From positions 1 to 23,965 of IMG/VR virus record IMGVR_UViG_3300034407_000208: a stretch of DNA of 23,965 bases; one strand, given 5' to 3'. Both the position numbers and the translations under genes were made by a program. This document shows positions 15,168-23,958 of the stretch, piece after piece (the first letter of the stretch is position 1; each line of letters opens with the position of its first letter). The notes beneath the pieces are model-generated. The model was given only the letters and a program-made list of their open reading frames with translations, was not told the origin of the DNA and ran no database searches. Source of the stretch: a virus.

Positions 15168-16387
15168 GATACGTACCGTGCAATCTTGTACTCCAGATCA
15201 GTGTGTACAATGCCGTGCCATCCTGACAACTTGTTCTTCACCACATTGATGTGACGCTGATTGTCTTCTTCCTCTTGACCCTCAACTGTAGGGTTCTTGG
15301 AGATCATGATCATTAGGTCTGCCTCTGCCGCTTTGCCTGTACGTGAGCCTTCCATCATAGCTTGGTTAAGTACAACCTTACCCTCTGCCTCCGCCGATAG
15401 CTGAGACATGTAGAATACTGCACAGTCCTGTTGCTTCGCAATCTGACGAGCATGGATAGCGTTAGCCTTGAGTGCTTCATCGGGACGTGAGAAGCCAGCT
15501 GTACGAGCAAACTTGTCACCCATGTCTAGTATAACTACGTCAGGTTTGTACGACTTGCACACTGACTCAACCCAGTTCATGTCACGGCCTGTTGCATCCT
15601 TGAACATAACCTTGTCACGTATCTTACTAAAGATAGACATAGCTTGTACCCTGTTCGTTACGATCTCATGCTTGTCCATACCTGTAGCTGCCGTAATGTA
15701 GCGGTGAGCTACACGGTGGTAGCCTTCCTCGTTACACAGTACAATAACCTTAGCACCCTGCCACGCAAAGCCGTTAGGCCCAGCAACAAGTGAGGCATGG
15801 AAGGATGTCTTACCTGTGTTAGGTCTAGCACCTACCTCAATCAGGTGACCAGCATTGATACCCTCAACCTTACGTGTTAACGTAGGGATGTTGAATGTCC
15901 ACTGTGACTCAAGATCAGTCATTGCAATGATTGTGTCGAGGTCAATGTCCTCCCACTCAACCTTGAGGTTGGGAGTGAAGTCATCACCGTACTGCTCAAG
16001 CATCTGACGTAGCGGATCAAGACTAGACTTGCTACCGTTTACATAGTCGAAGCCAAGGTTGGCAATGTCTTCTCCTACAACCTGCTGGAACAGCTTAGAC
16101 AGCACCTCCTGTGCTACGTCACTGCCCATAGGCTGCTCCTTACTTACTTGATGGAACAGGTGCTTGTATGCCTCTCTCTGTGCCGTTGTGAGGGTAGGGT
16201 TGTTAGCCATGAACAGAGCCTCAATCTCTGCCGGAGTTACGGTACGCTCATAGCGATCCATAGCTGTGTCGATTGCTTGCTTGATCTTGCGAACATCCTT
16301 GCTGAACAATCTGTCGGGGCAACGTGCGCCACGATGATCGTCATAGAAAGTCTTGTCCATCAAGCTACGAATAAGGGATAGTTCCAT
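15164..16387 (-). CDS. DnaB-like replicative DNA helicase
   Basis: The 407-residue helicase unwinds DNA ahead of the polymerase. The N-terminal 160 residues are helical, like the DnaB N-terminal domain, and the RecA-like motor has Walker A GARPNTGKT (186-194), the NEE element at 219-221 and Walker B VVILDMGD (284-291), with SQL near 328-330 and a C-terminal Arg-Thr-Gly-Lys segment. Unlike T7 gp4, where primase and helicase are fused, the two proteins here are separate, with primase just upstream. AGGAG is about 10 bases before ATG 16387. Confidence 0.93.
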   Translation of the reverse strand: MELSLIRSLMDKTFYDDHRGARCPDRLFSKDVRKIKQAIDTAMDRYERTVTPAEIEALFMANNPTLTTAQREAYKHLFHQVSKEQPMGSDVAQEVLSKLFQQVVGEDIANLGFDYVNGSKSSLDPLRQMLEQYGDDFTPNLKVEWEDIDLDTIIAMTDLESQWTFNIPTLTRKVEGINAGHLIEVGARPNTGKTSFHASLVAGPNGFAWQGAKVIVLCNEEGYHRVAHRYITAATGMDKHEIVTNRVQAMSIFSKIRDKVMFKDATGRDMNWVESVCKSYKPDVVILDMGDKFARTAGFSRPDEALKANAIHARQIAKQQDCAVFYMSQLSAEAEGKVVLNQAMMEGSRTGKAAEADLMIMISKNPTVEGQEEEDNQRHINVVKNKLSGWHGIVHTDLEYKIARYVS

Positions 16388-17175: not shown

Positions 17176-18279
17176 TTACTCGTTACCACTCGATTGTACA
17201 CGGACATTTCTTTGTGTCAATGCACTATTTGCAGAATGGTACGTATTTTTTAGATAGGGTTTCACGGAAGACACATGTGCATGGCCCGTCACTGACATGA
17301 CTTGGGGTAGTGGGACACCTGCATCCACCATCTGTGTAACTCCTGTCCTACGTAAGTCCATCAGACGTAAATCCTCTGGTAGTTTAGCCAGCCTCATTAC
17401 CCTACGGCCTACCTTCGACAGCCTCTCCATTGCATACGGTATGTACGTACCCTGCACAGGGCGAGGATGTGGTGCTACGTACTCTTGAAAACCAAAGTCA
17501 TTGCGCTGATCGTTGAGCATAATGCACAGGTCATCAGAGATTGGTAGTGTAACGTCAGCCCTACGCTTACTCTGTTCGAGGTTAAGTACTTGTTTTGCCA
17601 AGTCAATATTCTCCCACTTGAGATTGCGCATGTCACCAAGACGCTGACACCATTCGTATGCCATCTGCACAATGAGACCAAGATTGCGATACTCATAGTC
17701 GCTGTACGCTACATCAAGGAACCGGATAACGTCATCGTGTGACCACACTACCTTGCGTTGCGGTGTAGATTTACGTTTGATGTTAGCCCAAGGGTTCTGT
17801 GTAGTGTGTCCCATTTGTATGGCGTAATTGTACACACGGCTTGCACAAGTAGCAGCATGATTGGCGAAGCTGATACCTCTCTTCACCCACTCTTCGTATG
17901 CAGCCTTTGCAATCTTTGGTGTGACCATCTCGTACTTACGTGTACCCATAGTCTGATGGAGAACCGTCAGGAAGTACCTATAATCCACCTTAGTATTAGG
18001 ACGTAACATATTGAAATCATTAGACTGATAGTAGAAGTTTATCAAGTCCGTCACTCTGCTGCTTGGCTTTACTTGTACAACAAGAGATTGCTCATGTCTC
18101 CACGCATCAATGGCGGCATTGTGTTTCTTCACAATACGTCTCACCTCACGTATGTCATCTCCATATGTCTCCCTTGACACCACACCCTCGTCCACAAGGG
18201 ACTGCGGTGGGTTGAAGCGGTACGTGATGCCACCAGAAGGTGACACCCGTTGTTGTACGTAGCGTGGTAGTTTAGGCAT
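17176..18279 (-). CDS. int: Tyrosine recombinase / integrase
   Basis: The 367-residue protein has the two-part layout of phage integrases: an N-terminal SAM-like core-binding domain (about 70-165) and a C-terminal catalytic domain. Visible active-site residues are R213 (QRLGDMRNL), a likely K238, R310 (MDLRRT), H333 (TGHAHVSS) and the nucleophile Y342 (PYLKNT). The box II histidine, three residues before R310, is replaced by Met307. The gene is embedded in the replication operon, 3 bp after the DUF932-like gene. I found no tRNA-like sequence or direct-repeat att core in the window. A ribosome site is weak. It may catalyse integration, or resolve or circularise DNA. Confidence 0.93.
   Translation of the reverse strand: MPKLPRYVQQRVSPSGGITYRFNPPQSLVDEGVVSRETYGDDIREVRRIVKKHNAAIDAWRHEQSLVVQVKPSSRVTDLINFYYQSNDFNMLRPNTKVDYRYFLTVLHQTMGTRKYEMVTPKIAKAAYEEWVKRGISFANHAATCASRVYNYAIQMGHTTQNPWANIKRKSTPQRKVVWSHDDVIRFLDVAYSDYEYRNLGLIVQMAYEWCQRLGDMRNLKWENIDLAKQVLNLEQSKRRADVTLPISDDLCIMLNDQRNDFGFQEYVAPHPRPVQGTYIPYAMERLSKVGRRVMRLAKLPEDLRLMDLRRTGVTQMVDAGVPLPQVMSVTGHAHVSSVKPYLKNTYHSANSALTQRNVRVQSSGNE
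17193..17220 (-). promoter_or_regulatory. sigma70-like promoter for primase/helicase
   Basis: On the - strand TTGACA (17215-17220) is followed after 16 bp by TACAAT (17193-17198), five of six matches to the -10 consensus. It lies in the 3' end of the integrase gene. The transcript would start near 17186 and reach the primase ATG at 17154. It would let the replication genes be expressed apart from the integrase. Confidence 0.65.
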
Positions 18280-19194: not shown

Positions 19195-19587
19195 CTATCT
19201 ATAGAATAGGTGTGATCCATATGTCACAGTCTTGGACAAGGATGCACTCCAGTAAGGGTTAACGTACCTTGCGTGGTAGTGTGTAGCTCCGTTGGTAACG
19301 TCCGGTACGACACCAGTGAGAACTTGGTTGGCAACCAGCACGGACTTAGCCCATGCCAGTATCTCTGTGGGTTCGTCGGGCTTACCGTCACAGTACCATG
19401 TAAACTGGCACTTGAACTTACCCTTCTCGTACCCTTGCTGCACTACGGAACACACATCGTCGGGCCAGCGACCACTTGCAACCCTGTTGAGTACAACATG
19501 GGCTACAGCGGCTTGACCCTGCAATGGTTCACTACGTGCTTCGTGATATACATTGAGGGCCAAGCACATTAATGCTGCGCTAATCAT
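19195..19587 (-). CDS. SleB/CwlJ-type cell wall hydrolase (endolysin)
   Basis: The 130-residue enzyme is a Hydrolase_2 (SleB-like) lytic transglycosylase or amidase that cuts peptidoglycan. E16 in YHEARSE is the expected catalytic acid; QGQAAVAHVVLNRV, GATHYHA and the C-terminal GSHLFYR are the conserved segments. The domain starts at residue 1, with no signal peptide, so it needs a holin or membrane damage to reach its substrate. It overlaps the upstream 78-residue gene as ATGA. Its place in the early/replication operon, not in a late lysis cassette, resembles T7, whose lysozyme gene 3.5 is also in the DNA-metabolism block. Confidence 0.92.
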   Translation of the reverse strand: MISAALMCLALNVYHEARSEPLQGQAAVAHVVLNRVASGRWPDDVCSVVQQGYEKGKFKCQFTWYCDGKPDEPTEILAWAKSVLVANQVLTGVVPDVTNGATHYHARYVNPYWSASLSKTVTYGSHLFYR

Positions 19588-20328: not shown

Positions 20329-20670
20329 TTATGCTACTCCTTCTAGCTTTGCATCCAATTCTTTGAGCCATGTAACTAGGTGCTTACGTTGACGCATCAG
20401 TTTACCACGCTCCATGTCGTACTTACCACCAATAAGGCCAGCGGATTTGAGCAATTGGATGCGATAGTTTACACGGTTTTGATACTCGTTAAGCTCGCTT
20501 GCCATTTGCTTTTCCGTCTTAGTTTCCCAGTTCTCTAGGATGTAATCATCCAGAACGGAATAGTTGTATGTGTACTTACGTGCTTTCTTCATGTGGAATG
20601 TGTGCTGTACATACAACTCAGGCTTCAGGGATTTTACTACAGGGCGGTTGGTTTGTGTTGGGTTTGTCAT
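20329..20670 (-). CDS. Possible helix-turn-helix regulator
   Basis: The 113-residue protein is basic. Residues about 38-82 read as a winged or simple helix-turn-helix: a Tyr-Asp-Asp helix, then TEKQMASELNEYQNRVNYRIQLLKSAGLIGG, where QMASEL-NEYQNRVNYRI would be the turn and recognition helix, with a C-terminal Leu/Lys-rich helix that could dimerise. I chose ATG 20670, preceded by AAAAGGAG; a longer frame to 20703 lacks such a site. A DNA-binding protein here could act at the inverted repeats in the early region, but no direct link is shown. Confidence 0.76.
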   Translation of the reverse strand: MTNPTQTNRPVVKSLKPELYVQHTFHMKKARKYTYNYSVLDDYILENWETKTEKQMASELNEYQNRVNYRIQLLKSAGLIGGKYDMERGKLMRQRKHLVTWLKELDAKLEGVA

Positions 20671-20683
20671 GTGATAGCTCCTT

Positions 20684-21076
20684 TTAAGCTGTTTTAAGTT
20701 CAAGTGTTAAGTCAAGGCTGTGCCAGCCTATTGGCATACATACATGGGCATAGCCAGTTGTCAAGTCCATAAGTATATCTCCTACGGACATGCTTGGACG
20801 GTCTCGTATATTGGCAGTCTTTATGGAACCGTCACCATACCCATTGCCTTCATCAAAGATGGCCTCAAATGGGGTACGTTCTCTTGTTTCGATGTCGTGC
20901 ATAATCATGGTAGGTTCATACATATTGTGAAACAAACCGTCATGCACTGCATCTTCTACAGTCTCTCGTGTTGGCATACCAAGTGCGAAGTACGCTTTGG
21001 CATATACTGACGTAGGCATCCTGTTGATGCGGTCACTGTCAACATTAGTACGTTGGTAGATCATGTATACTGACAT
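20684..21076 (-). CDS. YodL-domain-like protein
   Basis: The 130-residue protein has the layout of YodL-type domains known from plasmids and phages: an N-terminal MIYQ strand, a middle YEPTMIMHDIE segment, TPFEAIFDEGNG, and the typical RPSMSVGDIL motif (about 93-102) followed by a beta-hairpin end. The match is from memory and could be partial; function of the domain is unknown, though it is often found near DNA-modification or anti-restriction genes. It begins two bases after the stop of the tiny upstream gene, with AAGGAT about ten bases before ATG 21076. Confidence 0.7.
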   Translation of the reverse strand: MSVYMIYQRTNVDSDRINRMPTSVYAKAYFALGMPTRETVEDAVHDGLFHNMYEPTMIMHDIETRERTPFEAIFDEGNGYGDGSIKTANIRDRPSMSVGDILMDLTTGYAHVCMPIGWHSLDLTLELKTA

Positions 21077-21078
21077 AG

Positions 21079-21234
21079 CTATGCTATCCTTTTACTTTTG
21101 TAATCGGTTACGCCTCGTTGCATTAGCACTTTTTTCTTTCGTGCAATGTCACGATCACGTTTCCAATCGTCATTGTATTTGGACTGTCCAACATTGGACG
21201 CTTTCCGTTTAGTCGTCTTGATGAAATTTTTCAT
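21079..21234 (-). CDS. Tiny basic protein (51 aa) carrying a copy of the 14-bp palindrome
   Basis: From ATG 21232-21234 to TAG 21079-21081, 51 residues, very basic (KRK, KRDRDIARKKK). The 14-bp palindrome at 21186-21199 is read in frame as SNVGQ. It overlaps the preceding tiny gene by 26 bp and ends two bases before the YodL-like gene, which supports it as part of the operon. No family recognised. Its ribosome site is not strong. It is short enough that the reading could be wrong. Confidence 0.6.
   Translation of the reverse strand: MKNFIKTTKRKASNVGQSKYNDDWKRDRDIARKKKVLMQRGVTDYKSKRIA
21186..21199. repeat. 14-bp palindrome copy 1
   Basis: GTCCAACATTGGAC: 6-bp perfect arms with a CA centre. 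It lies inside the 51-residue gene. Flank GGACT on the left as in copy 5. Confidence 0.9.
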
Positions 21235-21379
21235 TTCGTATTGCATCGTATTTGTCCTTGCTACGGTTACGTTTAGCTTTGCTACCTTTCTTTGGTGGCA
21301 CTACCTGTGGGGCTTTGCGCTCTTGCAGCATAGCCTTTGCCACAGGATTTACAATCCCCACAGATACTTTTTTAATCAT
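21209..21379 (-). CDS. Tiny basic protein (56 aa), NPVAKAM type
   Basis: The 56-residue protein runs from ATG 21377-21379 to TAA 21209-21211. It begins MIKKVSVGIVNPVAKAMLQE and continues with a Lys/Arg-rich stretch (PPKKGSKAKRNRSK). A NPVAKA start with a basic KKG segment is familiar from small conserved phage proteins whose job is unknown; a distant look of ArfA-like ribosome-rescue peptides (basic KKGKG) was considered but not relied on. AGAAGAGA precedes the start; overlaps on both sides fit a packed operon. Confidence 0.68.
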   Translation of the reverse strand: MIKKVSVGIVNPVAKAMLQERKAPQVVPPKKGSKAKRNRSKDKYDAIRNEKFHQDD

Positions 21380-21518
21380 CTGTCTCTTCTTCTACCTTGT
21401 GAAACTTTATTGTGATACAACCTGTGCCATCATCTTCCGTAACTTGCCACCAAAGGCCACGACTGTCATCAGATAGCACCATAGCATTAAGCCATTCAAA
21501 GAATACTTCTCTATCCAT
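21372..21518 (-). CDS. Tiny acidic protein (48 aa)
   Basis: ATG 21516-21518 to TAA 21372-21374 gives 48 residues beginning MDREVFFEWLNAM, with GLWWQVTEDDGTGCITIKF (a beta-hairpin-like stretch) and an acidic tail. Its start overlaps the end of the HhH-like gene by 8 bp and its stop overlaps the next tiny gene by 8 bp. Not recognised. It is real by arrangement and codon flow, but the ribosome site (TGGAT) is weak. Confidence 0.6.
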   Translation of the reverse strand: MDREVFFEWLNAMVLSDDSRGLWWQVTEDDGTGCITIKFHKVEEETDD

Positions 21519-22167
21519 GTTCAAATCCATATGTTACACATTCTACATGATACCTAGACACTACGTCACCAGTATCTAAGGCACGGTTGGCACGGTTACC
21601 AGCCACATACTCACACCATGAGTTCCACCAATATTCGGCAGTTGAAAGCTCATGATTTTCTCCATGCTCTGCGTACTGGTGGCACAAGTGAACGTAAGCC
21701 TCAATCTTACGAAGTATTGTAGCTTCCTTGGCTTTCATGTCAATTTTAGTTGCATTAACAGGTATACCAAAGCGTTTGAGGTTGTGGACATCCAAACAGG
21801 CAGTATCAAAGCCCAAGCATTGAGCCATAAATGCCGCTTTTACCATGCCAAAGTTAGGCACATTGACGAACAAACGTATAGCCTCTATGCAGCCTTGCTT
21901 GGAATCATAGCCGTGCTTGTCGGCAATCTGATACAATTTACCATATAGGTAATCCTTGTGGTCATTGAGGTACTCATAGCCATCGGACTTTTTACCCCAT
22001 AGGCAGTCAGCGGCATAGCCATCACGTTCAACCTTGACCATGCTACCACGGACTGTGGACAGGCCAGCTTGTATCGTAAGCAATACGAACAGGCCAGTGT
22101 TTACCAGAGCATCTGGGCCACGCCATTTTACGAAGGCTTTGATCTCATTTACATCACGTTGATACAT
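21511..22167 (-). CDS. Helix-hairpin-helix DNA glycosylase-like protein
   Basis: The 218-residue protein has, at about 100-133, a segment LFVNVPNFGMVKAAF...CLDVHNLKRFG that matches the helix-hairpin-helix plus catalytic Asp (D126) arrangement of HhH-GPD DNA glycosylases (VPGVGxKTA...VDxHVxR). The other parts are helical. It could excise or sense modified bases, or only bind DNA. The lysine seen in bifunctional members just after the hairpin is not obvious. ATG 22167 has AAAGGAT upstream; an ATG inside the palindrome at 22197 gives a longer form. The palindrome sits 22 bp upstream of the chosen start. Confidence 0.72.
   Translation of the reverse strand: MYQRDVNEIKAFVKWRGPDALVNTGLFVLLTIQAGLSTVRGSMVKVERDGYAADCLWGKKSDGYEYLNDHKDYLYGKLYQIADKHGYDSKQGCIEAIRLFVNVPNFGMVKAAFMAQCLGFDTACLDVHNLKRFGIPVNATKIDMKAKEATILRKIEAYVHLCHQYAEHGENHELSTAEYWWNSWCEYVAGNRANRALDTGDVVSRYHVECVTYGFEHG
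21716..21743 (-). promoter_or_regulatory. Possible internal promoter within HhH-like gene
   Basis: On the - strand TTGACA (21738-21743), 16 bp, TACAAT (21716-21721), five of six. It is inside coding sequence, about 200 bp before the three tiny genes. Its location makes it less certain than the promoters near gene starts. Confidence 0.35.
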
Positions 22168-22188
22168 TGTATGTATCCTTTCAAAAGT

Positions 22189-22202
22189 GTCCAACATTGG
22201 AC
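22189..22202. repeat. 14-bp palindrome copy 2
   Basis: GTCCAACATTGGAC with flanks AAAGT and GGTTT. It is 22 bp upstream of the HhH-like gene start at 22167, just ahead of its ribosome site. Confidence 0.9.
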
Positions 22203-22210
22203 GGTTTCAA

Positions 22211-22429
22211 TTAGGCAAATGCCTCATTCCATTCGGCAGGTGTGATACCTGTCATCAAGAACTCACGTTCTTCTGCCGACAATTGTGGCATAGCCGCTTG
22301 AATAAGCTGACCAGCTTTCCAATCATCATACTGTTGCCTAGTGAACGTCATAGACATTGTATTTTCTTTGCCAGACATCATAGATGTTTTACTTACATGA
22401 ACTGCATCGCTTGTCCAGATCATTTGCAT
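22211..22429 (-). CDS. Small early protein with 'EREFLMTGITPAEW' motif
   Basis: A 72-residue protein, mainly helical, ending AMPQLSAEEREFLMTGITPAEWNEAFA, a tail pattern I recall from many small phage proteins of unknown function. ATG 22429 has CGGAG eight bases upstream; an ATG at 22492 gives 93 residues, reading the palindrome in frame as NRPMLDTL, but has no clear ribosome site. The promoter and operator region at 22495-22554 lies directly upstream. If the transcript starts near 22518, both starts remain possible. Confidence 0.75.
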   Translation of the reverse strand: MQMIWTSDAVHVSKTSMMSGKENTMSMTFTRQQYDDWKAGQLIQAAMPQLSAEEREFLMTGITPAEWNEAFA

Positions 22430-22450
22430 TTGATAAACTCCGTTTAAAGT

Positions 22451-22464
22451 GTCCAACATTGGAC
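22451..22464. repeat. 14-bp palindrome copy 3
   Basis: GTCCAACATTGGAC with flanks AAAGT and GGTTT as in copy 2. It lies 22 bp upstream of the start at 22429, the same placement as copy 2 relative to its gene, and downstream of the 22.5-kb promoter. Confidence 0.9.
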
Positions 22465-22494
22465 GGTTTGTTTCAGTGTTAGTATTAAACATAT

Positions 22495-22554
22495 GTTATA
22501 TAACACTTTCACTAAAGTATCAGTGTTATATAACTATGTAATACTACTTGTCAA
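22495..22554 (-). promoter_or_regulatory. sigma70-like promoter overlapped by paired 13-bp inverted operators
   Basis: On the - strand TTGACA (22549-22554) is followed after 16 bp by TATATA or after 18 bp by TATAAC (22525-22530). The -10 lies in the arm AGTGTTATATAAC (22522-22534). Its perfect inverted partner GTTATATAACACT is at 22495-22507, 14 bp away, downstream of the predicted start. Each arm holds the self-palindrome GTTATATAAC. A dimeric repressor binding both arms would block or loop the promoter. It would drive the genes from 22492 leftwards. Confidence 0.72.
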
Positions 22555-22717
22555 GATGGTACGGTTCTATTTCAACGTGAAAGCCACCGACCTGTGGGAC
22601 AAAGACACCGAACTCATTGGCATTGGCATAGCCAAAGGTAACAAGGAATAGGTATACAAGTGCTACGCTTACTCCTACATAGGCGGCAAGTGCAATGTAC
22701 AATTCAGGTTTAGTCAT
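22544..22717 (-). CDS. Small single-pass membrane protein
   Basis: The 57-residue protein begins MTKPELYIALAAYVG and has one strong membrane helix (about 6-30), followed by a short tail (FGVFVPQVGGFHVEIEPYHLDK) that is beta-like and would lie outside or inside the cell depending on topology. I chose ATG 22717, with GGAAAG about nine bases upstream; ATG codons at 22738 and 22726 are alternatives. The 3' end holds the -35 of the following promoter. Role unknown; membrane proteins this early often act in superinfection exclusion. Confidence 0.7.
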   Translation of the reverse strand: MTKPELYIALAAYVGVSVALVYLFLVTFGYANANEFGVFVPQVGGFHVEIEPYHLDK

Positions 22718-22916
22718 TTTCAACATCTTTCCATCCACTGTCGTGGACTAACGTAGGAACACGGCGTTTCAACTCCTCTGGAGTGAACGTGTTGTCAATC
22801 AAAGTGTCCAATGTTGGACGGTTCATTTCATCTGCGAGTTCGCAGAACTGTGCCATAGCCGTGTCGAGCATAGACTGCTCAACACCAGCTTTGTAGGAAG
22901 ATACTTTGTATCTCAT
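22710..22916 (-). CDS. Small early protein (68 aa) carrying a palindrome copy
   Basis: The 68-residue protein reads through the palindrome at 22806-22819 as NRPTLDTL, then a Pro-Glu-Glu-Leu-Lys-Arg-Arg helix and an acidic tail. A similar motif (MLDTAM) occurs earlier at residues 16-21. Not recognised. ATG 22916 overlaps the upstream stop as ATGA; the ribosome site is weak, so coupling is likely. It overlaps the membrane-protein gene by 8 bp. Confidence 0.72.
   Translation of the reverse strand: MRYKVSSYKAGVEQSMLDTAMAQFCELADEMNRPTLDTLIDNTFTPEELKRRVPTLVHDSGWKDVEND
22806..22819. repeat. 14-bp palindrome copy 4
   Basis: GTCCAATGTTGGAC, the centre being TG on the + strand although the flanks (AAAGT, GGTT) keep the orientation of copies 2 and 3. 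It is inside the 68-residue gene. Confidence 0.9.
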
Positions 22917-23485
22917 GCAGCTTGACGCTTTTCGAGTACAGCCATCAAGTCAGTGATGATCTCTTCAAGATCAAGCTCATTCAATTCGGCTTGAGCTATG
23001 ATGGTATTCACCATCACTTTGTGAGTGATACGAGGCTTAGTTGTTTCAGCCTTTGGCTGTTCCGCATCGGACTGTCCAACATTGGACGTTTCACCTTCGG
23101 TGGTTTCATCTTTGGCTTTCTCAGCATCCCGCATTGCTTTCTGCAAAGCAGTAAGTGAAGTACCTTTGAACTTACCATCTTCGATGAACTTGCGGCACTC
23201 TACTTCGTTTTCAACGAACCACAGAGCTTCGGAACGGCGGCGGCGATCAATTACATTGATGCCATACATAGTTAGCGTTTGACGGCTTATCTGACCAGAA
23301 TCCAAAGTGGATTGAGCCTTCAACTCTTGTAAGAGTTTGCCAAGTCTTGTGTCGAAGCCAGAGGCTTTGATGGTATGTTTCAGACTGTTAGTCTGTTTCC
23401 AGATTGATGCTAAGGCTTTGCCTTCTTTTACGAGAGCTGAGATTGTAGTACCTTCGGTAGTTTTTGTTGTTGCTGAATTTGTCAT
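22913..23485 (-). CDS. First complete early gene; unassigned 190-aa protein
   Basis: The 190-residue protein is the first complete gene after the regulatory region at 23486-23742. It has a Thr/Lys-rich start, a helical part about 15-60, a basic segment ISRQTLTMYGINVIDRRRRSEALWFVENE (about 65-95) that could be a helix-turn-helix, a low-complexity Glu/Thr linker about 120-150 that contains the palindrome read as SNVGQSD, and a C-terminal Leu/Glu helix LNELDLEEIITDLMAVLEKR suited for oligomerisation. It may be an early regulator. AAGGA lies about ten bases before ATG 23485. Confidence 0.78.
   Translation of the reverse strand: MTNSATTKTTEGTTISALVKEGKALASIWKQTNSLKHTIKASGFDTRLGKLLQELKAQSTLDSGQISRQTLTMYGINVIDRRRRSEALWFVENEVECRKFIEDGKFKGTSLTALQKAMRDAEKAKDETTEGETSNVGQSDAEQPKAETTKPRITHKVMVNTIIAQAELNELDLEEIITDLMAVLEKRQAA
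23074..23087. repeat. 14-bp palindrome copy 5
   Basis: GTCCAACATTGGAC with GGACT flank like copy 1. It lies in the low-complexity linker of the 190-residue early protein. Confidence 0.9.
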
Positions 23486-23505
23486 TTCGGTAGTCCTTCT
23501 TTATC

Positions 23506-23584
23506 TATACTCTGTTTATATGAGAGAACCTATATCTCTCACAAATAGTGAGATATAGTTCTCTTTATAAACTAGTAGAGTATA
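23506..23584. repeat. Long imperfect inverted repeat in the early leader region
   Basis: The left arm (23506-23542) reads TATACTCT, GTTTATA, GAGAAC and CTATATCTCTCAC. The right arm (23548-23584), reverse-complemented, reads TATACTCTACTA, GTTTATA, GAGAAC and CTATATCTCAC. They match in the same order with three small gaps and a five-base centre (AAATA). Each arm also holds its own small palindrome (GAGAGA...TCTCTC and GAGA...TCTC). It could form a hairpin or cruciform, or be two inverted binding sites. It lies between the TTGACA at 23593 and the first complete early gene. Confidence 0.8.
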
Positions 23585-23598
23585 GTATAAGTTGTCAA
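23569..23598 (-). promoter_or_regulatory. Possible early leftward promoter (-35 strong, -10 weak)
   Basis: On the - strand TTGACA (23593-23598) is followed after 18 bp by TAGTTT (23569-23574), only three of six -10 matches; TATACT and TTTATA are near but at wrong spacing (8 and 21 bp). It overlaps the right arm of the inverted repeat, so a regulator could control it. The assignment as the main early promoter rests on position. Confidence 0.35.
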
Positions 23599-23742
23599 GT
23601 TGGTTTCTCATGACGTGATCCTCTGCGCCTGTCGTTTCCTACGCTACTGCAAAAATATATTTCATATATATTTTGAAGTTGGTGCGCTAAACTCATGCGA
23701 GGCTCCAGCTTGGATTAGGTCACCATTTGTGTTGCATAATTG

Positions 23743-23958
23743 TCATATACTTTGTATATGTAGCATGTCCAATGTTGGACACTTCAATTGACCATTGGCA
23801 GAGCTATGCACGGCTTGTGGATATGTGACATGACCATCTTCGATGGGGGGGTGGTATAAATGAGCATCGGCTTTGCAACACACCTTTGGTGTGAAAACTG
23901 CCCCAATTACTACACCATAAATGGTGGCAACTGATTGCATAACAGTTGTCGTAGACAA
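23743..23958 (-). CDS. Possible partial early protein at window edge
   Basis: A frame that stays open to the right window edge and stops at 23743-23745. From TTG 23958 it gives 71 residues, or from the internal ATG at 23940, 65. The N-terminal part is mildly hydrophobic (VATIYGVVIGAV), and the end reads the palindrome copy as CPTLDML, the same frame as two other copies. No ribosome site is visible in the window, so the true start may lie beyond it. It could be a real truncated gene or chance. Confidence 0.38.
   Translation of the reverse strand: MSTTTVMQSVATIYGVVIGAVFTPKVCCKADAHLYHPPIEDGHVTYPQAVHSSANGQLKCPTLDMLHIQSI
23744..23760. repeat. Small perfect inverted repeat at the end of the edge gene
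   Basis: CATATAC-TTT-GTATATG, 7-bp arms. It overlaps the stop of the possible edge gene and could be a protein site or a weak hairpin; there is no T-run after it on either strand, so a terminator is unlikely. Confidence 0.6.
23767..23780. repeat. 14-bp palindrome copy 6
   Basis: GTCCAATGTTGGAC with an ACTTC right flank, so it is inverted relative to copies 2-4. It lies near the end of the possible partial gene at the right edge, next to the hairpin CATATAC-TTT-GTATATG. Confidence 0.9.

Follow-up and report, generated by a model that had tools for sequence, protein, structure and literature searches.

Why would a 14-bp palindrome recur six times among the early genes of a phage and nowhere else on the same fragment? 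The window analyzed here, by which we mean the whole 23,965-base stretch of IMG/VR record IMGVR_UViG_3300034407_000208, is a fragment of a roseophage of the HMO-2011 type (PMC9038755), with DNA-level matches to Roseobacter phages CRP-207, CRP-4, CRP-345 and others; by DNA polymerase it is nearest to CRP-345 (77%), CRP-1 (77%) and HMO-2011 (67%). The palindrome GTCCAA-NN-TTGGAC occurs exactly six times in it, all inside 21186–23780, and each of the six positions given in an earlier reading of the letters alone (the original prediction) proved exact (Table 1). A whole-window scan gave no further copy, the nearest other sequence having two mismatches (at 15178). As had been claimed, the copies are not due to chance: the expectation for the pattern is 0.00, and none of 100 dinucleotide shuffles produced any match. 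The CA and TG centres are a single double-stranded site in two orientations, to which relatives add CG, GG and TA centres. From the comparisons below, we consider it probable that the palindromes are operators of gp190, a phage-encoded, sequence-specific DNA-binding protein, and that they serve multi-operator autoregulation or immunity.

To avoid circularity, 80 IMG/VR loci were picked solely because they encode gp190, and all 80 carry between two and nine palindromes. GTCCAA-NN-TTGGAC is present in at least two copies in 72 loci (class A), and the remaining eight have three to six copies each of GTCCGA-NN-TCGGAC (class G). The whole set contains 379 class-A sites, whereas palindromes with permuted arms average 0.08 each. 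Contigs with gp190 at 76–96% identity have five to seven sites where the region is complete, the 20 long gp190-positive contigs (46–80 kb) have three to eight each, and exact copies number six in CRP-345 and five in CRP-1. HMO-2011, whose gp190 homologue has 27% identity, has no copy of GTCCAA-NN-TTGGAC; its corresponding early region holds AGTCCG-ACAG-CGGACT five times, one copy being inverted relative to the other four. Site and gp190 co-occur in CRP-1, CRP-345 and, with this variant palindrome, HMO-2011. Both are absent from CRP-207, CRP-2, CRP-603, CRP-235, CRP-738, CRP-212, CRP-4 and HTVC033P. A scan for CCCCAACGTTGGGG returned 63 stretches, with multiple copies solely in the two gp190-bearing contigs. 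Searches for distant gp190 proteins added GTCCTA-NN-TAGGAC (L295), CCCCAA-NN-TTGGGG (five copies in L254/L255; also in L216) and hybrid sites. Copies mostly agree within one genome, whether their arms are GTCCAA, GTCCGA, GTCCTA or CCCCAA, and this switching in concert points to one trans-acting reader. Neither site loss in close relatives nor an equal density elsewhere, either of which had been named as evidence that would overturn the original prediction, was found among gp190-bearing relatives. In the long gp190-positive contigs with coordinates listed, nearly all sites lie within a few kilobases of gp190, in keeping with the early-region clustering first noted, and an upstream site stands ∼130–420 bp before gp190 in most relatives.

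The identity of the reader is indicated at the level of single residues. We compared 135 distinct gp190 proteins, 109 from class-A and 14 from class-G loci. At position 112, 105 of the 109 class-A proteins have T and 13 of the 14 class-G proteins have S, which only 1/109 of class A shares; at position 116, every class-G protein (14/14) has K, and class A usually has A, K, S or R. At least ten class changes are needed on a gp190 tree computed without helix 111–127. Across eight phylogenetically independent pairs, S112 tracked class in 7.1 and K116 in 7.4 on average, with no difference in the remaining pairs and never a change in the reverse direction; among the 116 gp190 columns scored, these are the top two and the next-best reached 2.7. 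The two residues lie four positions apart on the predicted helix 111–127, as expected of a recognition helix. Genomes with hybrid A/G sites mostly carry S112 with R116. Two gp190 proteins of the CCCCAA type, which share 54% identity, retain T112, in line with the unaltered base pair 5 of their sites, and have Q in place of the otherwise near-universal R82, a weak hint that R82 may contact base pairs 1–2; since HMO-2011 also has Q82, the contact is only suggestive. In locus L332 (IMGVR_UViG_3300045738_000193), the sites pair a GTCCTA half with a GTCCCA half, both orientations being present, and gp190 has C112/N116, a combination that could possibly be a further specificity.

Since the sites and two gp190 residues change together, the sites are most likely docking sites for gp190, and we strongly infer from these sequence patterns that gp190 recognizes them. 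The joint presence of site and protein, the switching of copies in concert and the covariation at single residues thereby favor the 190-aa protein that had been put forward as a candidate reader. They also support one part of the proposal that the palindromes are operators or stoperators, namely that a phage DNA-binding protein occupies them; the other part, repression, is hypothetical. The neighboring early proteins g56, g113 and g78 showed no comparable class-linked column, in a comparison for which few class-G loci were available, and the test left out the integrase and a DUF932-like protein, for which class-G loci were too few. A 113-aa winged-helix-like protein (20329–20670, minus strand), which weakly matches the transcriptional regulator family phrog_2440 (E 0.0065) and is conserved in CRP-1 and CRP-345, was rejected as the reader: it was not detected in HMO-2011 and several motif-bearing loci, and it has no class-linked residue.

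Table 1. Positions in the window of the palindromes, gp190 and associated early genes
Feature	Position	Strand	Remarks
Site 1	23767..23780	-	GTCCAACATTGGAC on early-gene sense strand; intergenic, ∼282 bp upstream of gp190 start
gp190	22913..23485	-	190 aa, all-helical; predicted site reader, of no known family
gp190 helix 81–92 (RRRRSEALWFVE)	23210..23245	-	arginine-rich; R82 is Q in two CCCCAA-type relatives
gp190 helix 111–127	23105..23155	-	predicted recognition helix; residues 112 and 116 covary with base pair 5/10
Site 2	23074..23087	-	within gp190 disordered linker; read S-N-V-G-Q; peptide follows site class in relatives
Site 3	22806..22819	-	within 68-aa open reading frame; frame N-R-P-T-L-D-T-L
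Site 4	22451..22464	-	intergenic; 21 nt 5′ of start codon 22429 (72-aa gene), preceding its ribosome-binding site
72-aa gene (phrog_20898)	22211..22429	-	behind site 4; in relatives its family occupies various site-headed slots
Site 5	22189..22202	-	intergenic; 21 nt 5′ of start codon 22167 (218-aa gene)
218-aa gene (MYQRDVNEIK...)	21511..22167	-	behind site 5; different slots in relatives
Site 6	21186..21199	-	within 55-aa open reading frame (21079–21246); read S-N-V-G-Q
Tyrosine integrase (PF00589)	17176..18279	-	downstream, same early block

Is it DNA, RNA or peptide that is conserved at these sites? The copy inside gp190 keeps one frame in relatives (116/116) while its peptide varies with class (SNVG, SDVG/SDIG or PNVG), in a linker that is otherwise poorly conserved and has the low prediction confidence of disordered segments; because the in-gene peptide is rewritten with the class, DNA is what is conserved. 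Selection for a peptide such as SNVGQ or LDTL, with the palindrome a coding coincidence, would fit the near invariance of SNVG within gp190, but identical DNA stands between genes and in two reading frames, as first noted (LDTL-type at 22806, SNVGQ at 23074 and 21186), and each genome keeps the palindrome of its own class as the peptide changes. Taken together, the six window sites refute this explanation, and we give it practically no credence. One copy in relatives does appear to be such a case. GTCCAAGGTTGGAC, encoding ERLSKVGR, lies inside the integrase gene in L015 (15688), CRP-345 (7079) and CRP-1 (6868) and is missing from the window; we rejected it as an operator, as its class-A letters are kept in the class-G genome G014 (23196), and since it does not switch with class it seems to be a coding coincidence.

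The original prediction had also suggested RNA hairpins that set translation; on this reading, GUCCA-NNNN-UGGAC hairpins in early mRNA would be bound by gp190 or another protein, which would thereby regulate translation of the gene that follows. Many copies do lie 19–21 nt ahead of a start codon, stem pairing is kept through class changes and, as a mild point, hybrid sites have G-U more often than A-C on the sense strand. However, centres (the hairpin loop) and hybrid half-sites are present in both orientations, and 31 of 43 single-mismatch sites place a non-pair in the RNA arms, some of them within transcribed genes. Copies in mid-gene have no nearby start, and RNA folding at the sites is unremarkable (z −0.2 to −1.7). 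Beyond an unpaired two-base step, moreover, the site is framed symmetrically by A/T-rich sequence at all site locations in classes A and G: A has a frequency of 0.62–0.83 three to four bases leftward (background 0.32) and T one of 0.52–0.73 three bases rightward (background 0.26). Given the two orientations and the frequent disruption of RNA pairing, double-stranded DNA appears to be the target, and we regard the hairpins as very unlikely. Of the earlier view that DNA or RNA rather than protein is conserved, the DNA half stands, as the peptide switches with class, and the RNA half is disfavored by the stem-breaking variants. Serine-recombinase crossover sites, another early suggestion, are disfavored because the centres differ between copies, CA/TG, CG, GG and TA being mixed within a genome.

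The arrangement of genes around the sites bears on what binding would achieve. The first large early gene is gp190; one site lies upstream of it, one inside it and several between or within the early genes that follow. Leaving aside gp190 and the stretch upstream of it, there are 289 distinct class-A sites, and behind 186 of them come a Shine–Dalgarno sequence and a start codon, the modal distance being 19–21 nt, where gene starts were assigned automatically in contigs that are in many cases fragmentary; the two window genes starting at 22429 and 22167 had been singled out for this spacing (∼21–22 nt), correctly so. The 225 open reading frames directly behind a site (window 20684–23485 and relatives L006–L349) comprise 59 families in 65 orders, so site-headed early genes appear to be swapped as cassettes, and newly arrived cassette genes would fall under gp190 control. 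Such shuffling could also mean that the repeats are mainly recombination joints for exchanging early cassettes, the gp190 covariation being secondary. In T4-type phages, PeSL elements reportedly combine an early promoter with a stem–loop and head shuffled small early genes; the likeness is a short palindromic element heading many small shuffled early genes, whereas here the element contains no consistent early promoter and a cognate protein covaries with it. Recombination joints would leave unexplained the copies inside gp190 and other genes, as well as residue-level covariation over repeated class switches, and homologous recombination would have little to work on in a 14-bp repeat. We judge them highly improbable as the main function.

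Returning to gp190 as the reader of operators, we propose that it binds the palindromes, probably as a dimer, with helix 111–127 of one subunit per half-site, residues 112 and 116 reading base pair 5, and the arginine-rich helix 81–92 possibly reading the outer base pairs; each half-site is bordered, two bases further out, by A/T-rich sequence. As gp190 accumulates it would occupy the sites and turn early transcription down, whether as a roadblock to elongating polymerase, as at stoperators, by looping, or both, and sites upstream of, within and beyond gp190 would let it damp its own operon. The outcome would be either an early shut-off timer or an immunity repressor of an integrase-bearing phage. 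The dimer state, repression and a role in lysogeny or immunity are all hypotheses. A tyrosine integrase is encoded in 20 of 20 long gp190-positive contigs, and CRP-3, from another subgroup, integrates into its host genome (PMC6918029), which makes an immunity-repressor role for gp190 plausible.

The closest functional analogue appears to be the repressor–stoperator system of the cluster A mycobacteriophages (L5 with gp71, Bxb1 and TipsytheTRex; PMC6550527, PMC9283540). There, too, one short site has many early-region copies, mostly intergenic, a conserved site lies upstream of the repressor gene, and divergence of the site consensus from group to group goes along with that of the repressor, as it does here (PMC6550527, PMC9283540). 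In contrast, the cluster A stoperator is a 13-bp asymmetric site oriented with transcription, found at more than 20 places genome-wide, while the present site is a palindrome in either orientation with 3–10 copies in the early region. The cluster A repressor binds as a monomer and has a helix–turn–helix (HTH) and a stoperator domain; once bound it stops transcription elongation, and lysogens are immune. gp190 has no sequence or structural similarity to it in PDB, Foldseek (E ≤ 0.001), Pfam or PHROG comparisons. Given the different symmetry, site number and spread, and protein family, we do not file the gp190 system as a cluster A stoperator member. Lambda CI and P22 C2 are dimeric repressors with two-fold symmetric operators and a recognition helix per half-site. 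The two-fold symmetry is shared (here the arms are exact and the flanks symmetric), as would be one recognition helix per half-site and, likely, autoregulation, whereas the present operators run along an operon rather than clustering at one promoter pair and gp190 has no CI-like or HTH family match. LacI-type auxiliary operators allow looping, and one operator upstream plus one ∼400 bp inside the first gene would allow it here, with an unrelated protein and more sites.

Several observations weigh against gp190 as a repressor that binds these sites. It has no recognized DNA-binding fold: a PDB sequence search gave no match, and Foldseek of two AlphaFold models (predicted template modeling score 0.53–0.55) against PDB gave nothing at E ≤ 0.001. 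HMO-2011 gp190, with K112 and Q82, is an exception to the residue code. In two of the locus-fetching searches the peptide patterns extended over residue 112, a possible source of bias in the class frequencies; the A3 search, which used the RRR motif only and does not overlap that residue, found both classes and the same picture. No gp190 turned up among 84,980 genomes of bacteria and archaea, which leaves integrated relatives hypothetical. Finally, the upstream site has a sigma-70 promoter at no consistent position.

This last point and the spread of sites over 3–4 kb of the early region, within and between genes, would suit a non-repressive role, in which gp190 binding organizes early DNA (as a nucleoid, partition or replication-origin protein) or serves activation or antitermination. 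We consider this unlikely: gp190 has no match to a replication initiator or, in Pfam, PHROGs and NCBIfam, to the ParB family (a ParA partner was not searched for), which also speaks against the partition-protein sites suggested earlier; spacings of ∼200–1000 bp are unlike iterons; and a location just before ribosome-binding sites fits transcription control.

More broadly, gp190 has no convincing family match in Pfam, PHROG, NCBIfam or PDB, and profile matches gave no HTH domain of known family. A viral structure library returned one match at E 3e-5, S4S2E1 (205 aa, 23% identity), possibly the HMO-2011 gp190 homologue since the lengths are equal, and a second, weaker match to an uncultured phage protein.

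Elsewhere in the window, a cell wall hydrolase (PF07486, E 5.6e-26; 19195–19587, minus strand) sits among the early genes, adjoined by a gene that matches phrog_1221, of unknown function. CRP-603 (MZ892991), in which gp190 is absent, has four TGTGA-TCACA palindromes in 120 bp upstream of its early genes (54104–54213), which may serve as operators for another regulator.

Phages of the HMO-2011 type form a dominant, widespread group in the sea, many members of the subgroup carry integrases, and the word ‘repressor’ does not occur in the genome papers PMC9038755, PMC8528129 and PMC6918029. If our reading is true, gp190 would be a new kind of DNA-binding protein and a previously unrecognized phage regulator. 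A bolder version, that gp190 founds a new phage repressor family with an unseen DNA-binding fold, that the site classes are natural immunity groups of HMO-2011-type phages and that a two-residue switch evolved repeatedly, is one we hold tentatively, at a little under even weight. A cognate protein–site pair with a repeated natural switch of specificity would offer a handle on early control, lysogeny and immunity groups in uncultured viruses.

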